Source: an uncultured Opitutia bacterium
Lineage (GTDB): Bacteria; Verrucomicrobiota; Verrucomicrobiia; Opitutales; UBA953
Assembly (NCBI GenBank): GCA_903860195.1
Contig: CAIOPO010000181.1
Span: 1-33,783 of the forward strand
Direction of reading: 5' to 3'
DNA length: 33,783 nt
Below are positions 16,937-32,185 of the stretch, piece after piece (the stretch's first letter is position 1; every line of letters begins with the position of its first letter). The notes beneath the pieces are model-generated. The model worked only from the letters and a program-made list of their open reading frames with translations. It made no database searches and was not told the DNA's origin. The position numbers and the translations under genes were made by a program.

Positions 16937-18166
16937 CTAGGCCCCGGCGGCCGTCCGGACGCGCCCCAAGGCCGAAGTTTGGCGCTCCCGAAGGACGGCC
17001 TGGGCCCTGCTGACCTTGGCCTTCGCGGCGGCGGGGTCCTTGGCGATGGACAGGACGGCCGGCACGATGCCCGCGAGCTGCGGTTCGTCGTCCAGGTCGA
17101 AGAGCCATTCGTGCAGGCCGATGTCCTTCCACATGTTGCCCTTCGAGGTCTGCTCGGCCCAGCGGCACACGACGGCCGGGATGCCGTTGCCGACGCACAT
17201 GATGGGCGAATGCATCTCATTGCCGAAGAGTCCGGCGCTGCGGACGTAGACGCTCAACGCCTCGTCGGTGAGCCAGTAATCCTGACGCCAGACCACGCGG
17301 TCCTTCACGTCGTCAGGCAGCCTGTCGTAAAGCATCTCCTTGCCGATGGCCATCTGGGTCCGGTCCTCGGGGCAGATCAGCACCTTGAGGTCGGTCTGCT
17401 TCACGACCGCGACGATGGCGGCGCGAAGCTGCGCATGGTCGTGCTCTTTCATCTCGTCGTTGCGCTTCTGCTTCACGGGATCGAAGGCGCGCTCACGGTG
17501 GATCGTCCAATACGGCGTGAACCGGTAGCGCGGGATGCAGCAGAGGAACTTGCCCCGCTCGAGGCCCCAGCCGTGCAGGAAGGCCTCGGCCTTCTCGTCG
17601 TCGCGCAGGTCGGTCGCGAACGCGCCGTCGGGTCCGAATTCCATGACCGGACACTTCACGCCGGCGGCCTGGGCGGTCGCGAGCGAGACCGAGTCGCGGA
17701 AATAGACGAACTGGGCGCCGGTGAGTACTCCGACCGTCTCCGGCGTCGGACTGCCCAGCGTGATGCCCAGCACGCCGTAGGGCTTAGGACCCTGCTGTCG
17801 CCAGAGCGCGACCTGCTTCTCGCCCACCAGGGAGGGACCGGAACCGTGCAACAGGAAGTCGTTCTCGGCGTAAAGCTTCGCGACGTCAGGCCTGGGGCTG
17901 GCGAACTTCAGCTTCGGAAAACGGGCGGCCAGCATCTCCTTCACGCCGTTGTCGACGTTGGAGGGCCAGAGCGTGACCTCGGCCTCCGGGAAGTGCCGCT
18001 CCAGCAAGGCCAGCACCCCCGGGGTGTGCGCGATGTCGCCGATGTTCACGGTCTGCCAGGAGGACCGCAGCACGATCCGCGGCGCCCTCCCCTTCGTCGT
18101 GCAGCCGGCCAGCGCCGCGCCGAGGGCCGCGACGGAGGCGGCGAGGAAGTCGCGTCGTGAAGTCAT
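16937..18166 (-). CDS. Polysaccharide pyruvyl transferase family protein with Tat/lipoprotein signal
   Basis: The 409-aa protein begins with a twin-arginine signal SRRDFLAAS and a lipobox-like LAGC with Cys22, so it is probably exported and lipidated. The rest resembles the polysaccharide pyruvyl transferase fold (CsaB/WcaK-like, PF04230). It has a Rossmann-type start with NIGD (NIGDIAHTPGVLALL), the LLHGSGPSLVG segment, YFRDSVSL, and a C-terminal half with GNEMHSPIMCVGNGIPAV, the usual R.H-type region. Family members move pyruvate from PEP to glycans in the cytosol, so an exported version is odd. It is the last gene of the five-gene minus-strand operon, 46 bp after the cytochrome/WD40 gene. 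Function is unassigned. Confidence 0.75.
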   Translation of the reverse strand: MTSRRDFLAASVAALGAALAGCTTKGRAPRIVLRSSWQTVNIGDIAHTPGVLALLERHFPEAEVTLWPSNVDNGVKEMLAARFPKLKFASPRPDVAKLYAENDFLLHGSGPSLVGEKQVALWRQQGPKPYGVLGITLGSPTPETVGVLTGAQFVYFRDSVSLATAQAAGVKCPVMEFGPDGAFATDLRDDEKAEAFLHGWGLERGKFLCCIPRYRFTPYWTIHRERAFDPVKQKRNDEMKEHDHAQLRAAIVAVVKQTDLKVLICPEDRTQMAIGKEMLYDRLPDDVKDRVVWRQDYWLTDEALSVYVRSAGLFGNEMHSPIMCVGNGIPAVVCRWAEQTSKGNMWKDIGLHEWLFDLDDEPQLAGIVPAVLSIAKDPAAAKAKVSRAQAVLRERQTSALGRVRTAAGA

Positions 18167-18212
18167 GGCGGAGGTCTCTCACGCCACGGGCCCGCGGGCG
18201 AGAAGCAAAAGC

Positions 18213-21200
18213 TCAGTTGGCCTTCGGAGCGTCCTTCTTGGGCAGCAGGGCGAGGTAACGCTCCCGGTCCTGCGCCACCTTGGCCTTGAGGGGTTCGACC
18301 TGCGGCTGGAGTTCCGCGAGCGACTTGGCGATCTCCTCGAGGTTTTTCAGGCGCTGGGGACCTTCCTTGACGGCGGCGGCGAGCGCCTTCTCGGCGGCAT
18401 CGACGGACTGGCGCCCGGCGGCGAGCGCCTTCTCGGCTTCGGCGAGCTCGGCCTGCTTGGCGACGAGCGGCTTGGAGGCCTCGGCAAGCTTGGCCCGGGC
18501 GGCGGTCAGGGCCTTCTCCAGGCCGGGGATCGCCTCCTGCGAGGACTTGAGGGCGGCCTGCTGGGGCGCGAGCTGGGCCTGCTGGTCCTTCTCCAGCTTG
18601 GCGACGGCCGCTTCCTTGGCCTGGCGCTCCGCGACCTGCTTCTCACGGATCGCCATGAGGCGGTCCACTTCGGTCCGGGCGGCCTTGTGGGCCTCCTCCG
18701 TCTTGACGGTCTGCGCGGCGAGTCCTGCGAGCTTGCCCTCCTCGGCCTTCAGGGCTGCGACCGCGGCGGCGAGGATCTTCTCGCGCTCGCCGAGGACGGC
18801 CTGCGCGGAGGCCAGGGAGGACTGCGCCTTGGCCACGGCGGCGAGTGCGGCCGACAGGCTCTTTTCGGTGGCGCGCTTGCGCTCGAAGTAGCCGATCGAG
18901 AAGATCGCCTTGAAGCCGCGGGCGGCCTCGAATTCGGTCCGGGCCGCGGTGACGGCCTGCGCGGCGGAGGCGACGCCGGCCTGCGCGGCCGCGACCTCCT
19001 TGGACTGGGCGGCGAGCACGGCCTCGGCCTTGTCGCGGCGCGAGGCGACCGCGGTGACGACCGCTTTCGCGTCGGCCTGCGCCTTCTTCGCGGCCTCCAT
19101 CGTCTTGAGCGCGGTCTCGAGCGCCGCCCGGGCGGCGTTGCGCTGCAGACGGACGGGCTCGATGGACTGGTTGAACTGCTCGACCGCCGCCTTCGCGGCG
19201 TTGACGTTCATCAGGTGGGTGCCGGCGGCCTTGTCCAAGGCGGCCTGGAGTTCGGCCACCGCCTTGAGCTGCGACTCGAGACGGCCGGAGGCCTCGGCCT
19301 CGGACTGACGCGGAGCCGACAGCTCCTTCTCCAGCGCGGGCAGCTCGGCCTTGATGCGGGCGGCGGCCTGCTCGAGGGCGGGCACGCGGGCGGCGGCTTC
19401 ATCGCGCGCCTGCCGGGCGGCGGGCAGCCTGGCCTCGGCCTGCTTGGCGGCGGCCTCGTTCTCCGTCCGGGCGGCGATGAGGTCGGCGATGTCCGACTCG
19501 ATCTTGGCGAGCCGGTCCTGGTCGGAGAGCAGGCCGACGTTGAACTGGGCGGCCTTGAGCGCGGCGAGACGCTCGCGCAACGACGGCAGCTCGGCGTGCG
19601 CGGTGCGGACCTTGGAGAGCGACGCGTCGGCGGCCTCGACCTTGGCGAGGCGGGCCTTGGTGCGCGCGGACTGGTCGACGTAGAAGCCGCGGGCCTTGGT
19701 GATGTCGGCGATCTGCGCCTCAGCCTTGGCCTTGTCCTTGGCGAGCAGGCCTTTCCAGTAGGCGAGCCCCTTGTCCATCTCGACGACGCGCGCCTCGAGG
19801 TCGGCGAGGTCGGCGCGGAGCCAGGCGGCGTTCGCGGAGGATTCGCGCAGGGCGTAGAGGGCCTTCTGCAGCGCGTCCAGCTCCCCGGCCCGGACCTTGG
19901 CGAGCTCGGCCCGACGGGCGACGATGGCGGGGCGCTCCTTTTCCGGAACCTTGTCATGCTTCACCTTGAGGTCGGCGCGCTCCTTCTCGATGCCGGCGAC
20001 CTTGGCCCGCATCGCGGCGACGGCGGCTTCGGCGTCGGCGGAGGCCTTGCGGGCGGCCGCTTCGGCGGGGCTGGGCTCGACCGCGGGATGGGCGGCCAGC
20101 AGGGCCTCGATTTCGGCGATGCGACGCTCGGTCTCGGCGACGCGGTCCGCGAGCTTGGGAGGATTGGAGGAGACCTGCGCGGCGGCCTGACCGTTGGTGA
20201 GGTCGATGAACTTGACCTCGCCGAGCCAGTTGCCGGAGACGGCGGACTTGCCGTCGTGCAGCGCGGCGACCGCGGAGACCACGTCCCCCTGCGGCTGCGC
20301 TTCACCGAGCTTCTTGCCCTCGACCGACCACAGCGCGACCTTGCCGTCCTGTCCGCAGGTGACGATGCGCCCGTCGGGCGTGAAGGCGACGCCCTCCACC
20401 CCGCCGCCGTGGGCGGACCAGTTGGCCACGCGCTTGCCCGTCTTCATCTCCCAGACCGAGACCGTGCCGTCGGCGGAGCAGCTGGCGAGGACGTTGGAGT
20501 CGGCGCGCCAGGAAAGTCCGGTGACGGACTTCTGGTGCTGTCCGAGGTTGAAGAATTCGCCGCCGTTGTCGGCCTCCCAGACCATGACGTTCCCGTTGCG
20601 GTCGGAGGTGGCGAGGAGGATGCCGTCGGGACTGAAGTCGGCGCCGGTCACCCACTCGGTGTGCTTCGAGATGACGTAGAGCTCCTCGCCGGTGGCGACG
20701 TCGAAGCACTTGACCTTCTTGGCATTGGTCCCGAACGCGACCCGGCGGTGGTCGGGCGAGATGTCGGCCGACATCAGCTGGTCGAACTCCTTGCCGACCT
20801 CGGCGATGCGGCGCCCCGTGCGCACATCCCAGATCACGGCGTGGCCGAGCTTGCCGCCCCGGCCTCCCCCGAGGATCAGGAGCGAGCCGTTGGCGCTGAA
20901 CTTCAGCGAACGCGCGTAGCCTTCCGGATAAGGCAGGACGCCGGCCAGCTCGCGCGAGTCGGTGTCGTAGAGGAGGATCTGCTTCTGTCCCGCGACCGCG
21001 AGGAGCGAGGTCCAGGGGCTGGCCGCCATCGCGACCACCGCGGAGGTCCGGGGCGTCACCACGACGGGCTCGAGCAGGACGTGCTCAGGGCGCGCCGCGG
21101 GTCCGTCAGGCTTCCCGGCGGAACCGGTGACCGCGAGCTCGACCTTGGGGCGGTTCGACTTGCGGGCGACGCTGTTCTTGGACTGGAGGGCGCCGCCTTC

Positions 21201-21539
21201 GATCCACTTGGCGAGCGTGACGAGGTCCTTCGCGTCGAGCGGCGCGCCTTCGGGCGGCATGAAGGGCTCCTCCTTCTTGGCGCTGCAGGTCCAGAGACGG
21301 CTGGCGGAAGGATTGCCCGGATCGATCACGGCCCCGCCCGAGCCGCCGTCGACGAGTCCCGCGTAGCTGGTCAGCTCCAGGCCGCCCTTCTTCTTGTCCG
21401 GGTTGTGGCAGGAGAAGCACTTGTTCTCCAGCAGGGGCCGGATGTGGTCGTCGTAGGTGAGCTTCTCCTGGGCCTGGGCGCAGACGCTGAGGAGCGCGGC
21501 GCAGACGAGGGACCGGCGGCTGAGCGGACGTACGCGCAT
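18213..21539 (-). CDS. Cytochrome c / WD40 beta-propeller / long coiled-coil fusion protein
   Basis: The 1108-aa exported protein has three parts. After a signal peptide (about 1-24), a planctomycete-type cytochrome c domain (PSCyt1) carries CFSCH at 41-45 and a possible distal Met94 in FMPPEG. Residues about 165-450 form about seven WD40 blades (for example VIWDVRTGR, DFSPDGILLATSDRNG and SCSADGTVSVWE), enough for one propeller. Residues about 463-1090 are an Ala/Glu/Lys-rich coiled coil with almost no proline over long stretches and one non-heptad interruption with AIFSIGYFERKR. The C-terminus is charged. PSCyt1-WD40 proteins are common in this phylum; the 600-residue coiled coil is less usual. 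It starts 13 bp after the DUF1549/1553 gene and is likely cotranscribed. Function is unknown. Confidence 0.85.
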   Translation of the reverse strand: MRVRPLSRRSLVCAALLSVCAQAQEKLTYDDHIRPLLENKCFSCHNPDKKKGGLELTSYAGLVDGGSGGAVIDPGNPSASRLWTCSAKKEEPFMPPEGAPLDAKDLVTLAKWIEGGALQSKNSVARKSNRPKVELAVTGSAGKPDGPAARPEHVLLEPVVVTPRTSAVVAMAASPWTSLLAVAGQKQILLYDTDSRELAGVLPYPEGYARSLKFSANGSLLILGGGRGGKLGHAVIWDVRTGRRIAEVGKEFDQLMSADISPDHRRVAFGTNAKKVKCFDVATGEELYVISKHTEWVTGADFSPDGILLATSDRNGNVMVWEADNGGEFFNLGQHQKSVTGLSWRADSNVLASCSADGTVSVWEMKTGKRVANWSAHGGGVEGVAFTPDGRIVTCGQDGKVALWSVEGKKLGEAQPQGDVVSAVAALHDGKSAVSGNWLGEVKFIDLTNGQAAAQVSSNPPKLADRVAETERRIAEIEALLAAHPAVEPSPAEAAARKASADAEAAVAAMRAKVAGIEKERADLKVKHDKVPEKERPAIVARRAELAKVRAGELDALQKALYALRESSANAAWLRADLADLEARVVEMDKGLAYWKGLLAKDKAKAEAQIADITKARGFYVDQSARTKARLAKVEAADASLSKVRTAHAELPSLRERLAALKAAQFNVGLLSDQDRLAKIESDIADLIAARTENEAAAKQAEARLPAARQARDEAAARVPALEQAAARIKAELPALEKELSAPRQSEAEASGRLESQLKAVAELQAALDKAAGTHLMNVNAAKAAVEQFNQSIEPVRLQRNAARAALETALKTMEAAKKAQADAKAVVTAVASRRDKAEAVLAAQSKEVAAAQAGVASAAQAVTAARTEFEAARGFKAIFSIGYFERKRATEKSLSAALAAVAKAQSSLASAQAVLGEREKILAAAVAALKAEEGKLAGLAAQTVKTEEAHKAARTEVDRLMAIREKQVAERQAKEAAVAKLEKDQQAQLAPQQAALKSSQEAIPGLEKALTAARAKLAEASKPLVAKQAELAEAEKALAAGRQSVDAAEKALAAAVKEGPQRLKNLEEIAKSLAELQPQVEPLKAKVAQDRERYLALLPKKDAPKAN

Positions 21540-21552
21540 CGTGGCGGGACGG

Positions 21553-24342
21553 TCAGTGGTTGAAGTAGAACTCCTTGGAGTTCATCAGCGCCCAGAAGGC
21601 GTCCTCGAGCACGGCCTGCCGGCTCTCGGGCTCGGCGGCGACGGACTTGATGACCGCGGCGGCCTCGGCCGGGAGCGGACGGCGGCCGAAGACGCGCATG
21701 AACAGCTCCTCGACGATCTCAGGGTCCTTCTTGCCGGCGGCGATGAGGGTCTCGACCACCTTGCCGCGACGGATGCGCTCGTTGAGCGCGTCGCCGTTCA
21801 TCAGGTGCAGGGCCTGGGAGAGCGAGGGGTCGGTCTTGACCTCGCTGGACGCGACCGACTCGCGCTTGGCGCGGCCGAAGGTGGTCAGGAAGTAGTTGGA
21901 CACCGCGCCGTCGGCGATCTGCACCGCGCGGGCGCCGAGCGGGAGGCCCTGGAACTTGTTCGGGGTCTCCGTGATCTGCGAGATGGCGTCGAGGAGGACC
22001 TCGGCGCGCACGCGGCGGACCTGCGAACGGGCGAAGTTCAGACGGTCGCCGGCGTTGGTCTCGTTCGGCTGCGAACTGCGCTGGTAGGCGGCCGAGAGCA
22101 CGATGTCTCGGACGATGCGCCTGAAGTCGTAGTTGTATTCCGTGAGGCGCTTGGCGAGCTCGTCGAGCAGCTCGGGGTTGGAGGGCGGATTCGAGATGCG
22201 CACGTCGTCGACCGGATCGACGATGCCCACGCCGAAGAAGTGGGCCCACACGATGTTGGCGAGGTTGCGGGCGAAGTACGGGTTGCGGGGCGAGGCCAGC
22301 CACTCGGCCAGGACCTTGCGGCGGTCGTCGCCCGGCTTGAGGTCAGGCTCCTCGGCGCCGAGGAACTTGGGCTTCACGGACTTCTTGGTGAGGAAGTGCT
22401 GCGACTCGCCGCCCCGGCTGTTGAAGATCACGACCTCCTGCGGGTCGTCGGTGGTCTTGCGGCCGATCTGGGCGAAGAAGGCGTTGAAGCCGTAGTAGTC
22501 GTCCATCGTCCACCGGTCGAACGGGTGGTTGTGGCACTGCGCGCACTGCAGGCGCATACCCATGAAGACCTGGGCGACGTTCTCGGACAGCTTCAGGCGG
22601 TCGAGCTCGTTCTGGTAGTAGTTGACGGAGGGCACCGAGACGGTGCCGCCGCTGGAGGAGAGCAGCTCGACGACGATCTTGTCGATGGGGACGTTCTTGC
22701 CGATGCGGTCGGCGAGCCAGTTGTAGTAGAGGAGCGCGTTCTTGTAGAAGGGCGGCGCGTTGTTGCCCTGGTTGATGCCGGAGCGGATCTGCAGCAGCTC
22801 GGACCACTTCATCACCCAGAGCTCGGTGAACTCCTTGCGCTGCAGCAGGGCGTCGACGAGCTTGGCGCGCTTGTCCGGGGACTTGTCGGCGACGAAGGCG
22901 CGGACTTCCTCGGGCTTCGGATAGAGGCCGACGACGTCGATGTGGACGCGACGGACGAAGGTCTCGTCGTCACAGAGGCCGGAGGGCAGGATGCGCAGGC
23001 GGTGCAGGCGCTCGTTCACCGCCTTGTCGACGTAGTTGACCTCCTCGGCCTTGGGACGCTCGTACTTCAGGCCCTTGGGGATGACGATGACCTGGGCGGT
23101 GATGCTGTAGACGTCGAAGCGCGCCAGCATGAAGGCGGCGCCGCGGTCGCCGGACTTGACCAGGCCGCCCTTGGTGATGGAGGCGACGGGGTCGTTGTTC
23201 GAGCTGAAGACGACCAGGTCGGTCACGTCACGGTCGGTGCCGTCGGAATACTTGGCCCGGACGGTGATCTGCTGGGCGGTGCCGGGGCCTTCGAGCACGA
23301 TCTGGGAGGGGAAGATCTCGACGCCGGTGACCTTGGCGATGTCGGCGGGATCGTCCTTGGCCCCGTTGGTGATCCATTCCAGGACCGCCTTGTTGTAAGC
23401 GGAGTCGGGCTCGTAGAGCTTGTTGCCCGAATGCGGCACGGCGCCCACGGCCTTCTCGACGAGGGTGCTTTCCTCGGGGATGGCGAGGTTGATGCGGCGG
23501 CCGACCATCTCGCGGGTGAGACGGACGTAGTCGCCGGCGGGATCCATGCCGAAGAGGGAGAGGCGGAAGCCGTCCTTGCCGCGGGCGGAACCGTGGCAGC
23601 CGCCGCTGTTGCAGTTGGCGCGCATGAAGACGGGCATGACGTCCTGACGGAAGGAGACCGCCCGGTCCTTGAGGCCGTCCTTGACCGCGACGGGGGCCTT
23701 GGCGGTGAGTCCGCCGATCTGGGCGGAGAGTTCGGTGGCGCCGGCGTCGCCGGCGGCGGTCAGGGTGAAGCCGTCCAGTCGCGCGACCTTGGGATCGGCC
23801 ACCTTGAGCGAGGCGAAGGAGGTGACGTCGCGGGTGGTCGCGTCCTGGAAGGTCGCGAAGACGACCACGCGATGGAAGTCACGGCGGGTCTCGAGGGAGA
23901 ACGAGGCGGGCAGGATCTCCAGCTTCTGGATGGTGGCCAGCTTGGCGGTGAGGTCGGCGCGCTCGGCGTCCACGGCCTTGTCACGGGCCTTGAGCACGAC
24001 GCCGGAGGTCCAGACGGCGCCCTCGGCGACCCAGCGGCGCAGGAGGTCGATCTCGGCCGCGGGCAGCGGCCCGTCCTTGGGCGGCATGATGTCGTCATGC
24101 CCCTTGGGCAGGGTGATGCGCTTCACGATCTCTCCGTCCTTGGGGTCGAGCAGGGAGGCCCCGCTCTCGCCGCCCTTGGCCATCTCCTCACGGGTGGTCA
24201 TGAGGAGCTTGCCCTTCACCTTGTCGGGGTTGTGGCACTCGACGCAGCGCCCCTCGAGGACCGGACGGACCTCGTCGAAGGAGACGGGGGCTCCGCCCAG
24301 CACGGTCGCCAGGAGCAGCGGAAGAAGGGTGAGGATGCGCAT
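21553..24342 (-). CDS. PSCyt1 / Big2-like / DUF1549-DUF1553 protein with three haem-binding motifs
   Basis: The 929-aa exported protein starts with a signal peptide (about 1-18). A PSCyt1 cytochrome domain has CVECH (33-37) and IMPPKDG. Two Ig-like Big2-type stretches follow (about 150-225 and 340-420). Between them is CNSGGCH (244-250), a C-x4-CH variant haem motif. DUF1549 (about 437-640) contains CAQCH (600-604) in the conserved CAQCHNHPFD block, and DUF1553 occupies about 680-920 (NIVWAHFFGVGIVDPVDD). DUF1549/DUF1553 proteins are abundant in Planctomycetota and Verrucomicrobiota and usually travel with DUF1501 genes, as here. They are thought to act in periplasmic polymer or sugar metabolism, without firm biochemistry. 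It starts 7 bp after the PPC gene. Confidence 0.92.
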   Translation of the reverse strand: MRILTLLPLLLATVLGGAPVSFDEVRPVLEGRCVECHNPDKVKGKLLMTTREEMAKGGESGASLLDPKDGEIVKRITLPKGHDDIMPPKDGPLPAAEIDLLRRWVAEGAVWTSGVVLKARDKAVDAERADLTAKLATIQKLEILPASFSLETRRDFHRVVVFATFQDATTRDVTSFASLKVADPKVARLDGFTLTAAGDAGATELSAQIGGLTAKAPVAVKDGLKDRAVSFRQDVMPVFMRANCNSGGCHGSARGKDGFRLSLFGMDPAGDYVRLTREMVGRRINLAIPEESTLVEKAVGAVPHSGNKLYEPDSAYNKAVLEWITNGAKDDPADIAKVTGVEIFPSQIVLEGPGTAQQITVRAKYSDGTDRDVTDLVVFSSNNDPVASITKGGLVKSGDRGAAFMLARFDVYSITAQVIVIPKGLKYERPKAEEVNYVDKAVNERLHRLRILPSGLCDDETFVRRVHIDVVGLYPKPEEVRAFVADKSPDKRAKLVDALLQRKEFTELWVMKWSELLQIRSGINQGNNAPPFYKNALLYYNWLADRIGKNVPIDKIVVELLSSSGGTVSVPSVNYYQNELDRLKLSENVAQVFMGMRLQCAQCHNHPFDRWTMDDYYGFNAFFAQIGRKTTDDPQEVVIFNSRGGESQHFLTKKSVKPKFLGAEEPDLKPGDDRRKVLAEWLASPRNPYFARNLANIVWAHFFGVGIVDPVDDVRISNPPSNPELLDELAKRLTEYNYDFRRIVRDIVLSAAYQRSSQPNETNAGDRLNFARSQVRRVRAEVLLDAISQITETPNKFQGLPLGARAVQIADGAVSNYFLTTFGRAKRESVASSEVKTDPSLSQALHLMNGDALNERIRRGKVVETLIAAGKKDPEIVEELFMRVFGRRPLPAEAAAVIKSVAAEPESRQAVLEDAFWALMNSKEFYFNH

Positions 24343-24349
24343 GAAAGTT

Positions 24350-26782
24350 TCAGTTCTTGGCCCCGGCCTTCTCCTGACGGAGCTGCTCGAGACGCGAAAG
24401 CACGACGGGCGCGGGCGCGGCCGGCGCCGCGGCCTTGGGGGCGGCGGCGGGCGCCGCGGCCTTGGCGACCGGAGCCGCCTTGCGCGGGGCGTCGATGCGG
24501 AGGGACGAGCCGAGCGCGATGCGGTGGGTGGCGGTGGACTTGCCCACGGGAATGTCCACCTGGACGAAGAGGTTGTCCTTCTTGCCGATCGGCGAGGCCT
24601 CGGTGGTCACCACGTTGAAGCGCATCTCCTTGGTGTCCTTCGTGACCTTGATCGGGGCGATCTGGATGGTGTCGGGCACGCCGACGAGAGTGGCGACGGC
24701 CTCGCCCTCGAAGGCGCGCGGGGCCTCGAAGTTGGTCGCCATCACGGCCTCCTTGCCGCGCTCAAGGGCGGTGAGGGGCACGGCGTTGGCGGCGACGTAG
24801 GCGTCCTCGGTGCGCACTTCGCAGAAGGGCGCGGCGTTGAAGACGCGCCCCTTGCCGGCGTCGGCCTCGCCCATGACGGTGAAGTTCCAGGACTTGGTCT
24901 CCACGCCGCCGTTGGCGCTGAGCTGGAAGACGCAGGAGTCGCCGCCCTCGGGAATGGTCTGCTCGCCGAGCGAGGAGACGCCGGGAGGAGTCCAGGTCAT
25001 GAAGACGCGGATGGGCGCCTTGAAGCCCTCCTTGCGCCTGGCCACGACCTTGAGGAAGAGCACGCCGTTGCGCACGAGGGGCGCGGCGGGCTTCTCGATC
25101 TCAAGCGAGTAGGGCGCCTCCTCGACCACGGCCACGGGCAGCGTGTCCTCGACTCCCTGATAGTAGATGACGTTGCCGATCCGGACGATGTCGAAGGTGC
25201 GGCGCATCTGCCCGGTGATCTTGACCGAGGGATCGGCGGGGACGAGACGGACGGACGAAAGGCCGTGGCCGAGCGGGGCGTCCGGCGCGGCTTCGAGCAG
25301 GAAGGGCACGTTGGGCAGGGAGCCCGGAGCCTCGGAGGTGAGGGCCTTCACGCCGGCAGGCAGGCCGGGGACCTCGAACTTGAAGTCGCCGCCGACGCCG
25401 TTGCGGGTGAAATTGAAGAGGAGCGCCATGCGGCCGCCGCGGGGCACCGCCATGAACTGCCTGTAGTTGGTGTCGTTGACCGTGTAGTCGGGCGAAGCGA
25501 AGGTGAGGCTCGGCTGCGAGGCGACGATCTCGATGCGGTAGACGAAGTTGGGGCCGCCGCGCTCGAGATGGTCGGAGACGCGCACGATGTACACGCCGTC
25601 GGCGGGCACGGTCAGGCGGAAACGGGAGTCGAGGCGGCGCATGCCTCCGCCGTCATCGTTGGAAGTCAGCGCACGGCCGGCGGAGCTGAGCAGGGAGACC
25701 GTGGGGTCGAGCGGCGAGCCGAAGGTCTGCGCGAAGGCGCGTCCCTCGATGGTCTGTCCCTTCTTCAGCGGGATGCGGAAGAAGTCCACGTCGCCGGGCT
25801 TCTCGATGATGCCGTTGAGGGCGTACGCGGGGGCCTCGGCGGCGACGTTGGCCTGCTCGGCGACGTCATTGGGCTCGGCCTCGAGGGTGTTGTCGAAGGA
25901 GGAGAGACGGAAGACGTTCCCGGAAGGGGTGTTCGCGCGGGTGCGCGGCAGGAGCATGAAGTCCGCGTCCTCCTCGGCGGGCAGCTGCACCTCCTCGGAG
26001 AAGGACTCGCGGCCCTCGACGAAACGGACCTGGACCTTGGTGCCGACCTTGCCGCCGGCGGGGTAGATGGCGTCCGGGCGGGGGAAGTCGCCGACGTGCA
26101 GGCGGTAGAAGGAGTTGCCGGAACCGCGGTAGGACGACTCGCGGACCATCACGTAATAGTCGCCGTCGTACTCGGCGACGAAGGAGCAGTAGCCGTCCTG
26201 ACGGTGCAGGATGGTGTCGTCCGAGAAGGCCTTCTCGAAACGTCCCTGGTCGAGGATCGCCACGTAGGGGTCCATCGCGCCCTGCGGGATGGCGCCGAGG
26301 CGGAGGCCGTCGACCTGCACGCTGATGCGCTGCCCTTTCTTCACCGACACCTTGTAGTAGTCGACGTCCTCGGAGAGCACGACGCCCTCCACGGTGGAGC
26401 CGAGCTTGACGGCCTGGGCCTGGGCGAAGTCGGTGTTGGGCTCCGCCTCCTCGACGTTCGGGAAGGGGCTCGCGAAGAACTGCCGCATGTGCGAGACGCC
26501 CGTCTTCGTCCGGACGCGCACGACGTGGTTGCCGGGGCGGACGGACTTGTCGATGGCGACCATCATCTCGACCTTGTTGGTCGCGCGGCTGAGGACCTTG
26601 GTGACCTTGAAGCCGGGCGTGTAGAACATCAGGTCCTCGAAGTCGTCGAGGCGGCTGCCGCCGATGGTGAGCTGGAACTCCGAACCGATCTGGCCGCCGA
26701 AGGGCTTGGTCGAGGTGAAGTCCGGATAGGCGGCCCGGACGCAGGCCGCCGTCAGGAGAAGGGAGGTGAGGATGCGGAGCAT
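24350..26782 (-). CDS. Exported PPC-domain protein
   Basis: The 810-aa protein has a signal peptide (about 1-17). Two regions look like bacterial pre-peptidase C-terminal (PPC) domains: about 95-215, starting EAEPNTDFAQAQAV, and about 300-420, starting EAEPNDVAEQANV. Both have DVDYY/DVDFF and a final Y-R-hydrophobic strand. Beta-sandwich-like sequence covers the remainder, and the last 60 residues are an Ala/Pro/Lys-rich tail. No protease catalytic domain is evident, so it is probably a structural or binding protein. It sits between the DUF1501 and DUF1549/1553 genes, an arrangement I recall from Planctomycetota/Verrucomicrobiota genomes. Confidence 0.85.
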   Translation of the reverse strand: MLRILTSLLLTAACVRAAYPDFTSTKPFGGQIGSEFQLTIGGSRLDDFEDLMFYTPGFKVTKVLSRATNKVEMMVAIDKSVRPGNHVVRVRTKTGVSHMRQFFASPFPNVEEAEPNTDFAQAQAVKLGSTVEGVVLSEDVDYYKVSVKKGQRISVQVDGLRLGAIPQGAMDPYVAILDQGRFEKAFSDDTILHRQDGYCSFVAEYDGDYYVMVRESSYRGSGNSFYRLHVGDFPRPDAIYPAGGKVGTKVQVRFVEGRESFSEEVQLPAEEDADFMLLPRTRANTPSGNVFRLSSFDNTLEAEPNDVAEQANVAAEAPAYALNGIIEKPGDVDFFRIPLKKGQTIEGRAFAQTFGSPLDPTVSLLSSAGRALTSNDDGGGMRRLDSRFRLTVPADGVYIVRVSDHLERGGPNFVYRIEIVASQPSLTFASPDYTVNDTNYRQFMAVPRGGRMALLFNFTRNGVGGDFKFEVPGLPAGVKALTSEAPGSLPNVPFLLEAAPDAPLGHGLSSVRLVPADPSVKITGQMRRTFDIVRIGNVIYYQGVEDTLPVAVVEEAPYSLEIEKPAAPLVRNGVLFLKVVARRKEGFKAPIRVFMTWTPPGVSSLGEQTIPEGGDSCVFQLSANGGVETKSWNFTVMGEADAGKGRVFNAAPFCEVRTEDAYVAANAVPLTALERGKEAVMATNFEAPRAFEGEAVATLVGVPDTIQIAPIKVTKDTKEMRFNVVTTEASPIGKKDNLFVQVDIPVGKSTATHRIALGSSLRIDAPRKAAPVAKAAAPAAAPKAAAPAAPAPVVLSRLEQLRQEKAGAKN

Positions 26783-26845
26783 GGGCGGGTCGGGCGGGTC
26801 GCCCCGCGGACGCCCGCCGCGGGCGGACGGCGCGGGGCGCGCGGA

Positions 26846-28177
26846 TCAGGCGAGCCAGTCGTTCATCACGCGTCCGCCGTTGACGATGTCGATCGGACGG
26901 CCGCCGTCGGCCATGATGCGCTTCTCGCTGTTGATGCCGAGGCAGCGGTACATGGTCTTGGCGAGGTCCTCCGGTCCGACCGCGTCGCGGTCGGGCTCGC
27001 CGCCGAGGGCGTCGGAGGCGCCGTGGACGTAGCCTTCCTTCATGCCGCCGCCCGCGAGGGCCACGGAGAAGACGCGCGGCCAGTGGTCGCGGCCGTTGGT
27101 GCCGTTGATCTTCGGGGTGCGGCCGAACTCGGAGCTGACCATGACGAGCGTGCGCTTGAGCATGCCGCGGTCGTGGAGGTCGGTGATGAGACGGGCGAAG
27201 GCCTGGTCGAAGGCCGGGGCGTTCTGCTCGAAGCCGCCGCGGACGTTGGAGTGGTGGTCCCAGCCTCCGTAGGTGACGGAGACCATGCGCACGCCGGCCT
27301 CCACGAGGCGGCGGGCGAGGATGAGGCGCTGGCCGGCGGTGTTGCGGCCGTATTCGTCACGCAGCTTGTCGGGCTCCTTGGAGAGGTCGAAGGCCTCGCG
27401 GGCCTTGCTGCTGCTGACGAGGCCGTAGGCGGCCTGGTAGAAGCTGTCCATGGCGTTGATCGCGTCGGACTTCTCGACGGTGCGGAAGTGCTCGTCGACG
27501 GCGGCCAGCATGCCGCGGCGGCGGTCGAAACGGGTGGCGGTGACCTCCTTGGGAGCCAGCAGGTCGCGGACGGTGAAGTCCTTGGCGGCGGGGTCGCTGC
27601 CGAGCGCGAAAGGCCCGAAGGCGCTGCTCATGTAGCCGGTGCCCTGCTCGGGAATCGACTGGCTGGGGACGACGACGTAGGGCGGCAGGTTGTTGCGCGA
27701 GCCCTGCTCGTGGGAGACGACGGAGCCGAAGCTGGGGAACTTGATCGCGGGGCTCGGACGGTAGCCGGTGAACATGTTGTGCGTGCCACGCTCGTGCGCG
27801 GCCTCACCGTGCGTCATCGAACGGACGACGGTGAGCTTGTTCATGATCTTGGCGATGTTGACGAACTTCTCGCCGACGTACTCGCCGGGGACGGAGGTCT
27901 TGATCGGAGTGAAGGGACCGCGGTAGTCGGGCGAAGCGAAGGGCTTGGGATCCCAGGACTCGTGCTGCGCGATGCCGCCCGGGAGGTAGATGTGGATCAC
28001 GGCGTCGGCGAGCGCGGGGAAGGACTCGACCTTCGGAATCTCCAGCGCCTGCAGCCTGAGCATCTCAGGGAGGCTGAGACCGATCGTTCCGAGCACGCCG
28101 ACCTGAAGGAAGTCGCGGCGGCTGAGGGCGGACAGGAAGTCAGGGTGGTCGCCCTGGCAGTTCTTGTGGAGTTTCAT
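26846..28177 (-). CDS. DUF1501 domain-containing protein (Tat-exported)
   Basis: The 443-aa protein has a twin-arginine motif SRRDFLQVG at about residues 19-27, after an N-terminal region with a CQGDHPDFL segment. The DUF1501 core, an alkaline-phosphatase/sulfatase-like fold, shows AVIHIYLPGGIAQHESWDPK, RSMTHGEAAHERGTHNMFTGY, SSEFGRTPKINGTNGRDHWP and a C-terminal LGI. These His/Asp/Ser-rich blocks are the family's conserved metal-site-like positions, but activity has not been defined. It is the first gene of the minus-strand operon ending at 16937, 63 bp before the PPC gene. A CATAAT element at 28196-28201 (minus strand) lies close to the start, with TTGCAA at 28222-28227 spaced a long 20 bp. 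Confidence 0.92.
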   Translation of the reverse strand: MKLHKNCQGDHPDFLSALSRRDFLQVGVLGTIGLSLPEMLRLQALEIPKVESFPALADAVIHIYLPGGIAQHESWDPKPFASPDYRGPFTPIKTSVPGEYVGEKFVNIAKIMNKLTVVRSMTHGEAAHERGTHNMFTGYRPSPAIKFPSFGSVVSHEQGSRNNLPPYVVVPSQSIPEQGTGYMSSAFGPFALGSDPAAKDFTVRDLLAPKEVTATRFDRRRGMLAAVDEHFRTVEKSDAINAMDSFYQAAYGLVSSSKAREAFDLSKEPDKLRDEYGRNTAGQRLILARRLVEAGVRMVSVTYGGWDHHSNVRGGFEQNAPAFDQAFARLITDLHDRGMLKRTLVMVSSEFGRTPKINGTNGRDHWPRVFSVALAGGGMKEGYVHGASDALGGEPDRDAVGPEDLAKTMYRCLGINSEKRIMADGGRPIDIVNGGRVMNDWLA

Positions 28178-28631: not shown

Positions 28632-31172
28632 ATGACCTCCGACACCGACCCGACGAACAGCCCAAAGGACCCGAGGAGCCTGCCGCTCGGATTCCGCGCG
28701 GTGCTCCTGGCGTCCGCGCTCTTCATCGCGGGTTGCTCCGCCTACTTCTCGGTGCTCGGACTCGGCAAGCTGTTCACGGGCGCGGAAGTCGCCGTGATGG
28801 TCATGGCCGCCTCGCTCGAGATCGGCAAGCTGGTCGCCGCGTCCTTCCTTTACCGGCACTGGCACCAGATCACGGGGACGCTGCGCTTCTACCTGACGCT
28901 GGCGGTGGTCGCGCTCATCGGCATCACTTCGCTGGGCAACTACGGCTACCTGGCCAGGGCCTTCGAGGAGACCGCCACCACGATCGCCCGCAATGAGGCC
29001 GGCATCGCCGACCTCGAACGCGCGATGGCCGAGACGCAGCGGCGGATCGAGGACGCGAAGGGCCGCACGACACGGGTCAGCACGGCCAGCCGGGAGGACA
29101 TCGCCAAGCTCCAAGGGCGCCTGTCCCAGGCGGGGGAATCCCTCGCGCAGTCGCTCGCGCGTATCCAGGAGCAGCGCAAGGCGCTCGACGCGCGCCGGGC
29201 CCAGGAGCTGACGACGGCCTCCGGCCGCTCCGGCGAGCTCGGCTCGACGCTGGCCAAGAGCATCGCGGCCGAGGAGGCCTCGGCCGCCCGCGCGATCGCC
29301 GCCGAGGAGTCCGCCATCGCGGGGCTGAACGAACGCATCAAGGTGCTGGACCAGGCCGTGGCGGCCTACACGGCGCGCGGCACGACGACCTTCCTCATCT
29401 TCGAACAGGACAACGTCCGCAAGGGCCAGGAGCTGCGCGAGCAGCAGAAGCCCGAACGGGACGCGATCCTCGGCAAGCTCAAGGAGTCGTCCGAAGCGAT
29501 CGCGCGCCTGCGCTCCGAGAGCGCGGCCCGCATCGAGCGGCTCCGCACCGACCAGACCAAGGTGAGCGCCGACTCGGCCAAGGACACGGCGGCCCTGCGC
29601 GACCAGTTCGCGCGGGAGCTCGGCCGGCTCGACGAGGAGGAGAAGGCGCTGCGGCGCTCCGGCGAGGCCGCCGTCTCGGCCCTCGAGAAGCAGCTCGCGG
29701 ACCTCCAGCGGCAGGGCGAGACGCGCACGGGGCTGACCGACGCGGAAGTGGAGGCCCTGTACCGCTCGAACCGTGAGCGCGCCGACGAGATCCAGAAGCT
29801 CCGCGACCAGATTGCGTCGACGGACATCGGCTCCTACCGCTTCGTGGCCCGCGCCTTCGACGCGGAGGCGACGGACGTGGTCAAGTGGCTCATCCTCACG
29901 CTGGTCGCGGTGTTCGACCCGCTGGCGGTCACGCTGGTCGTCGCCTTCAACATGACGATGATGGGGCCGCGTCCCGCCGCCGGCGCGACGGTCGCCGGAC
30001 CCGCCTCTTCCGCCGCGCCCGGGCGACGGGGACTCTCCCTCGAGACGGTCGTGGCCGTCGCGCTCGCGGCCGCGCTGGCCGGCCTGATCGTCTGGCTGCT
30101 GACTTCGGACGACGGCCGGCCGGCCCGGAGCGTCGGCGCGGTGGAGATGGTGCCGGGGGACAGCTTCGCGGTGGTGACGCTCCGCCCCGACACGCTGCGC
30201 GGCGGGGCCGGCCTGCCGGATTGGCTCGGAAGCGGCGGCAAGGGACTCGCGCTCGCGGTCGCGGAACTGTCCAAGAACGGGCTGGATCCGACGGCGGACG
30301 TCCACGCTTTCGCGAAGTTTCCCTCCGGAACCGGCCCGGCCGGAGACGGCAACCACCCGGTGGTCATCTGCGGACTGGTGCTCAAGGTCGCCGACGCCGC
30401 GCTGGCGGAAACCGCGCTCTCCAAGGTGACGGATGAGATCGCGGCCTCGCTCAGGAACGCTCCGGACCGGCCGGCCGCCAGCCGCAGCCGCTCGATGATC
30501 CGCCACGGGCGCGGGCGTTACATGGACCCGGAAGGGGGCTTCCTCACGTTCGGCGTCACGGCGGGCGCCGCGGTCATACTCATCGAATTCGAAGGCGATC
30601 CCGCCTCCCCCAGGATCGAACAGGAGATCCGCCGCTGCCTCGCCGGACCCGCGACGACGGACGAATCGGCGCGCCTGCCGGCGCAGGCGCTCGCCTCCGA
30701 GGGAGCGCTGTCGCTGTGGCTCGACGCCGACCGTCTCTTCAGCCGCCTGCCGATGGGCGAACGCACCAAGGCGCGCTACGGCAAGGCCCGCTCGGCCACG
30801 GACTTCGAGCTCTCGCTGACGGTGAACCCCGCGGGCAGGGACTCGCTCGCGGTCACGGGAAGCCACGTCTACCGGTTCGACCGTTTCAACGTGCCCGGCA
30901 ATCCCATGGCAGGCCTCGCGCAGGCCGGCACTCCCGCCGACGCGGACCTGGCCTGGAAGCTTCTGAACCGCTGCGGTGACACGCTGGACTTCGACGCGCT
31001 CATCGAGCGTCTGCGCTCGGCGCTGGGCGAGGACGGACGGAGCGGACCCAAGCTCGTGAGGGTCGAGAAGTCCGTCGCCTCGGCCCGCTCGGCCAAGTTC
31101 AGCATGACGGCGAAGTTCGACGCGAAGGCGGGCCCGCCGTTGGTGACGGCGATGCGGCTGATCGCGCAGTGA
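28632..31172 (+). CDS. Large membrane protein: N-terminal TM domain, coiled coil, two TMs, exported C-terminal domain
   Basis: The product is 846 aa. Residues about 22-107 hold three hydrophobic helices, including AYFSVLGLGKLFTGAEV and MAASLEIGKLVAASFLY. They are followed by about 300 residues of coiled coil (about 110-410). A membrane helix at 416-440 contains FDPLAVTLVVAFNM and another lies at about 473-493. The C-terminal 350 residues form a soluble alpha/beta-like domain with KGLALAVAELSKNGLDP, resembling DUF3352-like or other planctomycetal domains. The N-terminal helices plus the FDPLAV helix resemble, from memory, membrane proteins encoded by marine myophages. That link needs a profile search. 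It is translationally coupled (GTGA overlap) to a lipoprotein gene. Function is unknown. Confidence 0.8.
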   Translation: MTSDTDPTNSPKDPRSLPLGFRAVLLASALFIAGCSAYFSVLGLGKLFTGAEVAVMVMAASLEIGKLVAASFLYRHWHQITGTLRFYLTLAVVALIGITSLGNYGYLARAFEETATTIARNEAGIADLERAMAETQRRIEDAKGRTTRVSTASREDIAKLQGRLSQAGESLAQSLARIQEQRKALDARRAQELTTASGRSGELGSTLAKSIAAEEASAARAIAAEESAIAGLNERIKVLDQAVAAYTARGTTTFLIFEQDNVRKGQELREQQKPERDAILGKLKESSEAIARLRSESAARIERLRTDQTKVSADSAKDTAALRDQFARELGRLDEEEKALRRSGEAAVSALEKQLADLQRQGETRTGLTDAEVEALYRSNRERADEIQKLRDQIASTDIGSYRFVARAFDAEATDVVKWLILTLVAVFDPLAVTLVVAFNMTMMGPRPAAGATVAGPASSAAPGRRGLSLETVVAVALAAALAGLIVWLLTSDDGRPARSVGAVEMVPGDSFAVVTLRPDTLRGGAGLPDWLGSGGKGLALAVAELSKNGLDPTADVHAFAKFPSGTGPAGDGNHPVVICGLVLKVADAALAETALSKVTDEIAASLRNAPDRPAASRSRSMIRHGRGRYMDPEGGFLTFGVTAGAAVILIEFEGDPASPRIEQEIRRCLAGPATTDESARLPAQALASEGALSLWLDADRLFSRLPMGERTKARYGKARSATDFELSLTVNPAGRDSLAVTGSHVYRFDRFNVPGNPMAGLAQAGTPADADLAWKLLNRCGDTLDFDALIERLRSALGEDGRSGPKLVRVEKSVASARSAKFSMTAKFDAKAGPPLVTAMRLIAQ

Positions 31173-32185
31173 GACGGGAGATGCGCGCCTCGCTCTGCAC
31201 TTTCCTGATCGCGGGGGCGGCCTGCCTGCCGCTCGGAGGATGCAGGACGGATTCAGGTTCGGGAGTCGCGGAGTGGGACGAGCTCACGGGCGGCGGCTCC
31301 GGCAAAGGCCGTCCCGTCACGGGCGGCGAAGTTTCCGAAGGGAAGAAACCCGACGCTCCTTCCGCTTCTCACGCCAAGGCGGCCGACGTGCCGAAGAAGG
31401 ATACGGACGGCCCCGGAGCAACGTCCGCGAAGGAGCCGGCGCGCATGCCGACGCCGGTCGCCGCGAAAACTGCCGGGAGCGCCGTGGACTTGATGACGCC
31501 GGACAAAGGCGGAATCAGCGCGAAGAGAAAAGGCCCGGGGCTGCCGGACTCCGCCGCACCCGGACCGATGACAAAGGCGTCCGCCGGCGCCGTCCTGCCC
31601 GCGCCGGGCGAACTCGCGCCGACGAGCGCAATGAAAACCGGTTCGCTCTCGCTGCCCACTGCCGACGTCTCCGCCTCACGCGCCGCACCGGCGTCCATCG
31701 GCCTGTCCGCCGTGGAGACGAAGCCCGCGAATCGTCGGACGGAAGCCTCAAGGATCAGCGTGCCCGGCGGGATCGCGTCCGCCGCCGCCGCCAAAACCGG
31801 CGGAGAGCCCATCTCAATCCCCGCCATCGAGAGCGCGGAAAAGCGTCGCGCCGCGCCCTCCCCCGTCGCCATCCGGACGGGAGAGGCGCCGGTCGCCGCG
31901 AAGTCCGCGGTCGCCGCACCCTCGCTCAAGATGGAAGCGGAAGCGCGCGCCCAGGGCAGGCAGCCGTCCGCCGGACATCGGGTCGCCCTGCCCTCCGGTC
32001 CGAAGCCCGGAGAAGGGACGGCTGACTCACGCGCCCTGCCGGAAGGCGTGGCCGGCGAAGACCCCCTCAGCCGGAAGCGCATCCCCATCCCCTTCCGTCT
32101 CACCGAGTGGATTTCCGGAGAAACGTCGGAACGGGACCGCCGCGCCGAAACCGTGCGGCTGGAACCGGGTGAACGGCCGAAGTGA
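31169..32185 (+). CDS. Low-complexity lipoprotein coupled to the 846-aa membrane protein
   Basis: It starts at a GTG overlapping the upstream stop (GTGA), or at an ATG at 31181, giving a lipoprotein signal with lipobox LGGC (Cys25 from the GTG). The mature part of about 310 residues is rich in Ala, Pro, Ser, Lys and Gly with scattered acidic residues, and no fold is recognisable. Imperfect short repeats of the type AAKTG/AVKTG-like segments (TAGSAV, MKTGSL, AAKTGGEP, IRTGEAPV) suggest a disordered, repeat-derived chain. It ends with a charged segment, GETSERDRRAETVRLEPGE. The overlap points to coexpression with the membrane protein, perhaps as an outer-membrane or peptidoglycan-facing partner. 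The gene converges with the DUF1080 gene, with a 21-bp gap. I do not recognise the family. Confidence 0.65.
   Translation: MRREMRASLCTFLIAGAACLPLGGCRTDSGSGVAEWDELTGGGSGKGRPVTGGEVSEGKKPDAPSASHAKAADVPKKDTDGPGATSAKEPARMPTPVAAKTAGSAVDLMTPDKGGISAKRKGPGLPDSAAPGPMTKASAGAVLPAPGELAPTSAMKTGSLSLPTADVSASRAAPASIGLSAVETKPANRRTEASRISVPGGIASAAAAKTGGEPISIPAIESAEKRRAAPSPVAIRTGEAPVAAKSAVAAPSLKMEAEARAQGRQPSAGHRVALPSGPKPGEGTADSRALPEGVAGEDPLSRKRIPIPFRLTEWISGETSERDRRAETVRLEPGERPK

Follow-up and report, generated by a model that had tools for sequence, protein, structure and literature searches.

Proteins with DUF1501, PSCyt and PSD domains are numerous in Planctomycetota and Verrucomicrobiota, and the papers that mention them give their function as unknown (PMC5615132, PMC4452313, PMC4960237, PMC5587647, PMC2754498, PMC5122149, PMC4982196). 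The same is stated for the PSCyt proteins of freshwater Verrucomicrobia, which often have sulfatase genes nearby (He et al. 2017, PMC5615132), and in Planctomycetes DUF1501 genes have been noted beside WD40 genes (PMC5587647). Our literature search, which for the most part did not reach subscription papers, found no functional study of these domains. Among described systems, the PVC DUF1501 module of Kamneva et al. 2012, as related in PMC4452313 and PMC4960237, resembles the genes A to D analysed here in that it joins DUF1501 to signal-peptide-bearing neighbours in Planctomycetes and some Verrucomicrobia. Pairs of PSCyt2/PSD1 and DUF1501 genes, as described by He et al. 2017 (PMC5615132), draw on the same domain families but occur as many paralogues per genome. 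The DUF1501-DUF1800 pairs, found for example near bacterial chitin synthase genes, likewise combine a Tat-exported DUF1501 protein with a second unknown one, although no haem domains and no PPC or WD40 partner are described for them (PMC5122149).

DUF1501 loci in PVC bacteria are therefore already known, and the A-D cassette is a variant of these. It may differ from the Kamneva module, in so far as that module is described in the papers cited, in that it is a single orthologous lineage whose partners are PPC and PSCyt1-WD40 proteins and, in one lineage, an additional gene E; because this comparison is by description only, our claim of novelty is lowered to match. The window, that is, the whole 33,783-nucleotide stretch of DNA that was analysed, is contig C181 of a 2.1 Mb genome (209 contigs, 85% complete). 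The named genomes closest to it are, for the most part, those of freshwater-type Opitutae obtained from metagenomes. This genome has 21 DUF1501 matches over the cut-off and 18 PSD1 genes, 12 of which are followed by DUF1501 within 500 bp. Its pairs are thus mostly PSD1 first, whereas the window block begins with DUF1501 and carries a PPC gene between the two, an order seen in this genome in the window block only (hand count). On contig C208 (L159:7512-10525) the genome has a second DUF1501/PSD1 pair with low scores (340 and 121 bits), which differs from its other pairs.

All five open reading frames are on the minus strand (Table 1), in the transcription order A, B, C, D, E, with intergenic gaps of 63, 7, 13 and 46 bp. 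The first-pass annotation had described five exported, closely spaced genes on one strand, and this description, including the domains that it named, is borne out. The N-termini of A (twin-arginine motif SRRDFLQ) and E (TIGR01409, 19.7 bits against a cut-off of 16.7) are of the Tat type, and those of B, C and D appear Sec-like by eye. Within the block, a scan for sigma-70-type signals detected neither a promoter nor an excess of terminators, a result that carries no information in this phylum.

Table 1. Genes of the locus and the open reading frames upstream of it (window coordinates).
Feature	Coordinates	Strand	Length and description
Gene A	26846..28177	-	443 aa; Tat-type exported DUF1501 protein, alkaline-phosphatase/NPP superfamily fold (predicted)
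Gene B	24350..26782	-	810 aa; Sec-type exported Ig/PPC protein; Pro/Ala low-complexity linker; C-terminal tail LSRLEQLR
Gene C	21553..24342	-	929 aa; exported PSCyt1 - Ig-like - cytochrome (CX4CH) - Big_2 - PSCyt2 (DUF1549) - PSD1 (DUF1553)
Gene D	18213..21539	-	1108 aa; exported; PSCyt1, WD40 propeller and a long Ala-rich coiled coil whose length varies
Gene E	16937..18166	-	409 aa; Tat-exported PS_pyruv_trans-fold protein; LAGC is lipobox-like in this species; accessory neighbour restricted to the genus group
Divergent ORF upstream of A	28632-31172	+	846 aa; membrane/coiled-coil protein; 53-78% in many genus members; no Pfam match
ORF after the divergent membrane protein	31169-32185	+	338 aa; no Pfam or NCBIfam match

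Genes A-D are a separate orthologous cassette, and Planctomycetota and Verrucomicrobiota share its gene order. We surveyed gene order, by tblastn and by script, in named loci representing the best 80 of 371 relatives found with an alignment of B; several of these loci share contigs with genomes that were examined separately, so that the sets are not independent. Among 38 Opitutae-like loci, with all genes on one strand and counting only contigs with room, A precedes B in 36/36, and C and D follow in 36/36 and 33/33, respectively. Twenty distant loci, belonging to Gemmataceae, Isosphaeraceae, Pirellulaceae, Gimesia, other Planctomycetota and some Verrucomicrobiota, show the same arrangement, with A in 19/19, C in 19/19 and D in 16/17 by script where the contig had room, and the sole miss (L146) does show D by tblastn. 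The flanking genes that recur around the planctomycete loci belong only to families common to three or four loci. Two contigs labelled Polynucleobacter meluiroseus (L084) and Akkermansia muciniphila (L103) carry an Opitutae-type cassette, with B at 73% and 65%, and the species names given to these metagenome bins are apparently mistaken. The 22 Verrucomicrobiaceae-like loci are arranged differently: A adjoins in only 3/19, C in 15/17 and D in 4/12. Scattering in relatives, the observation that the first-pass annotation had held to speak against its operon, is thus real in part of this family, but the dispersed genes are nevertheless retained: an A orthologue (78-82% identical) is present elsewhere, with no B, C or D nearby, in 10/10 genomes, and a D orthologue is kept in 7/7.

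Co-inheritance was also apparent when A and B were surveyed in 288 evenly sampled genomes of Verrucomicrobiota. Orthologues of B (E<=1e-80) occur in 20 of these genomes and those of A (E<=1e-120) in the identical 20, with a score gap between the lowest cassette A (606 bits) and the next match (422 bits); A stands directly before B in 18 of the 20. The naive probability of such a pattern match is 3e-31, or 6e-17 when counted by genus, but because the genomes are related, this is not a formal test, and the co-occurrence is phylogenetically clustered in 11 genera. In the class to which Zavarzinella belongs, 151 of 198 genomes contain B (E<=1e-200), only three of them in two copies; because this threshold is strict, the remaining 47 genomes may hold weaker relatives. 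In phylogenetic analysis, the A proteins of the cassette group in a single clade apart from 11 paralogues (support 99/98), in a tree in which some paralogue branches are long and their own placement is unsure. In the trees of A, B, C and D alike, the genus group of the window joins Verrucomicrobiaceae (100/100) rather than other Opitutales, a concordance that suggests that A-D moved, or was retained, jointly as a whole set. Taken together, these observations strongly support A-D as a real, ancient, co-inherited set of four genes for exported proteins. The five-gene unit of the first-pass annotation holds for these four, whose order and strand are kept as far as Planctomycetota and whose A and B profiles are identical; gene E lies outside the conserved unit.

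Gene A is a clear DUF1501 protein (PF07394, 2e-108, 363.4 bits against a cut-off of 27, profile positions 1-388 of 390), although, among the matches listed, it is only 28-36% identical to the other DUF1501 copies of its genome. Its structure model, built from a 28-row alignment, is of middling confidence (pLDDT 64, pTM 0.69) and, in a structure search, matched ENPP6 (Z 16.5 over 241 residues, 3.7 A), which points to a fold of the alkaline-phosphatase/NPP superfamily; sequence searches of solved structures yielded nothing useful. Weak matches to the Phosphodiest profile were obtained for 17 of 28 orthologues, and weak DUF1552 matches for the same number. The alignment contains nine invariant polar residues (H123, E125, H128, H133, D307, H309, E350, D364 and H365) which, judged from the alignment, could bind metal. 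No canonical Ser/Thr nucleophile of the superfamily is obvious in this alignment, and, given this and the pLDDT of the model, A may be non-catalytic. Type I sulfatases are marked by a Cys/Ser formylglycine signature, C/S-x-P-x-R. We rejected this assignment for A, which has no PF00884 match, no invariant S-x-P-x-R and only two cysteines (7 and 412), both outside the signature, so that of the sulfatase-fold protein announced by the first-pass annotation the fold is retained and the sulfatase is not.

In gene B, PPC is matched in two stretches (1.1e-12, Pfam), and the linker that precedes the C-terminal tail is rich in Pro, Ala and Lys. The tail itself is well conserved: L[ST]RLE[KQ]LR forms the C-terminal end in 74 of the 77 orthologues examined, and two of the three exceptions are truncated where their contigs stop, whereas the third has LTRLQKLR. 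In loci L039-L158 the pattern is absent from every non-B open reading frame of 80 aa or more.

Genes C and D contain the putative haem-binding domains. Gene C matches PSCyt2/DUF1549 (8.4e-47), PSD1/DUF1553 (8.2e-43) and PSCyt1 (5.9e-9) and fits the definition of a PSCyt protein, namely PSCyt2 followed by PSD1 with a CXXCH motif inside PSCyt2, and gene D matches PSCyt1 (3.4e-14) and WD40 (6.1e-28). The motifs are CVECH (position 33), CNSGGCH (244, of the CX4CH type) and CAQCH (600) in C and CFSCH (41) in D; the chance expectation for CXXCH, estimated from 20,000 shuffles, is 0.0009 in C and 0.00055 in D. The earlier claim of at least four haem motifs in two adjacent proteins is thus correct in number, with three CXXCH and one CX4CH, but the fourth motif is of the latter type and the term multihaem is apt only in a modest sense. 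The Cys and His residues of C motifs 244 and 600 are invariant in 33/33 orthologues, and these two motifs, together with that of D, are present in 21/21 loci listed, compared to 13/21 for the N-terminal PSCyt1 motif of C. Given this conservation, we regard C and D as candidate c-type cytochromes. The N-terminal motif is missing in L052, L139, L141, L144, L147 and L149-L151, which represent a single freshwater subclade and the listed planctomycete loci; the number of haems thus differs between lineages. Similarly, PSCyt2 and PSD1 profiles match 33/33 C orthologues and PSCyt1 only 19/33, and the N-terminal PSCyt1 is an extra domain specific to some lineages. Because 15 of the 33 C orthologues also match DUF1800 weakly (E<=0.1, best 6.6e-5), there are hints that the DUF1501-DUF1800 and DUF1501-PSD1 pairs may be versions of one theme. 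The model of C (pLDDT 74) appears to run from a haem domain through an Ig domain, a second haem domain and a second Ig domain to the helical PSCyt2-PSD1 part. Sequence searches of solved structures matched only the Ig-like domains of C, and structure searches likewise matched the Ig parts alone and left the helical PSCyt2/PSD1 half unmatched, which is no measure of its novelty. Because no solved structure matched this half, an enzymatic role for it is something that we only infer.

The 3' end of the locus is changeable. Gene E matches PS_pyruv_trans (PF04230) over the full profile length (4.1e-11, 43.8 bits against a cut-off of 25.3), a feature that it has in common with CsaB and other polysaccharide pyruvyl transferases, from which it differs by its export signal; it falls far under the CsaB equivalog cut-off (21.8 versus 213 bits), and sequence searches of solved structures gave nothing useful. 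H319 is invariant in all 14 alignment rows. Polysaccharide pyruvyl transferases use phosphoenolpyruvate, a cytosolic donor, on a glycan. The Tat signal of E, which is found in the genus group, would therefore separate the protein from that donor. Gene E is present in 31 of 37 genus-group genomes, that of the window included, usually directly after D; by hand count, 30 of these genomes have both B and E, three B only, one E only and three neither. In L097, L103 and L105 the contig continues beyond D, but E does not follow there; E is also absent alongside the cassettes of G037 and G054 and from the cassettes of other families and of planctomycetes. Conversely, G049 and G055 have E and lack a full B orthologue and the cassette. 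A five-gene unit that includes E was rejected given these distant cassettes without E and these genomes with E alone. Several E-family proteins are encoded in G055, an order-level relative, away from any DUF1501 cassette (L058, L059, L060), and because the open reading frames of the L058 and L059 homologues start only 12-15 residues before the matched part, there is no room in them for a Tat leader.

Sister clades within the genus have two further genes between D and E, one for a sulfatase (PF00884, 2.7e-50) and one for a putative metalloprotease. The pair, a sulfatase and an exported HExxH-like protein, lies directly 3' of D at L052:13016-15345 and at the matching places in L051, L053, L054, L073, L097 and L105. 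With duplicates removed by hand, the sulfatase follows D at 76% identity or more in nine distinct genomes, with E next in five; the best Pfam matches of the HExxH-like protein are under cut-off, and the clade of the window lacks both proteins. Because E is absent from some cassettes, present without them and separated from D by these insertions, it is a lineage-specific accessory of the changeable 3' end, probably a later and optional neighbour.

As to function, our confidence is evenly poised that the products of A-D work as a single exported unit, most probably a complex at the envelope, with the following mechanism of haem electron transfer. B would be the scaffold and would dock a partner through its C-terminal tail, whereas the propeller and coiled coil of D would position the haem domain of that protein. 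Electrons would pass, in one direction or the other, between D and C, in which two haem motifs are invariant and a third is optional, and the PSCyt2/PSD1 module of C would work with A, as a metal-dependent protein of the alkaline-phosphatase superfamily, on an envelope or extracellular polymer; electron transfer would be coupled to the alkaline-phosphatase-fold A on the B scaffold. Its presence as a single copy in most genomes of the planctomycete class points to a housekeeping function in the envelope. It does not suggest one of the numerous systems dedicated to particular substrates, to which the multiplication of the paralogues may be due. More speculative, and in our view possible but doubtful, is the specific version in which A-D is an undescribed haem-bearing envelope machine that most members of a planctomycete class keep as one copy and that moved as a unit among Verrucomicrobiota. 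In this version the end of B, behind its low-complexity linker, would be a dedicated docking tag that recruits A or one of the cytochrome subunits, and electron transfer would be coupled to a hydrolysis or transfer reaction on an envelope polymer.

The proximity of the genes could, in principle, reflect chance or gene density, with separate transcripts and no common function, and the displacement of A and D in part of Verrucomicrobiaceae speaks for such an explanation. However, the order is kept over two phyla, the planctomycete loci have no widely recurrent other neighbours, the phylogenetic profiles of A and B are identical and the genes are retained after dispersal, so that we disfavour this explanation as very improbable. 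A larger system of five or more genes for the degradation of sulfated or acidic polysaccharides would comprise A-D, the sulfatase, the putative metalloprotease and E, with C and D oxidising sugars and E acting on pyruvylated glycans. The genes inserted between D and E in the sister clades agree with this scheme, and so do the sulfatase genes near PSCyt genes and the carbohydrate-binding modules on some PSCyt proteins, as described in PMC5615132. Yet the sulfatase, the protease-like gene and E are variable and missing from distant cassettes, and presence as one copy in the majority of a class's genomes is a poor fit to a niche substrate. Moreover, the glycan processing suggested by the first-pass annotation finds no counterpart within A-E, where Pfam detected no glycoside hydrolase, lyase or carbohydrate-binding match, and where no sugar uptake gene accompanies them as in a polysaccharide utilisation locus. 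We therefore consider such a degradation system unlikely, although a glycan link of the locus is possible because a genuine sulfatase sits after D in the sister clades.

The prevalence of adhesive and scaffold domains (Ig/PPC, propeller, coiled coil), together with the lack of an obvious canonical nucleophile in A, would also suit a mainly structural envelope assembly in which A is non-catalytic and the haems are structural or sensory. Such an assembly would fit the proposal, made in the literature, that a DUF1501 module is tied to PVC cell organisation; DUF1501 clusters, or a 'highly conserved genetic module', are described as occurring mainly in compartmentalised PVC species (PMC4452313, PMC4960237). 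The strictly conserved polar residues of A and the haem ligands of C look catalytic, however, and the cassette is kept also by a freshwater genus with genomes of about 2 Mb, so that a mainly structural role does not seem to us a probable one.

Under the preferred reading, that of one exported unit working on the envelope, the tail of B is a concrete handle for finding a binding partner. The many paralogues per genome make the DUF1501, PSCyt and PSD families hard to test. Because the A-D cassette is co-inherited, widely retained and as a rule present only once per genome, deleting its genes singly in a planctomycete amenable to genetics could give the family a function.
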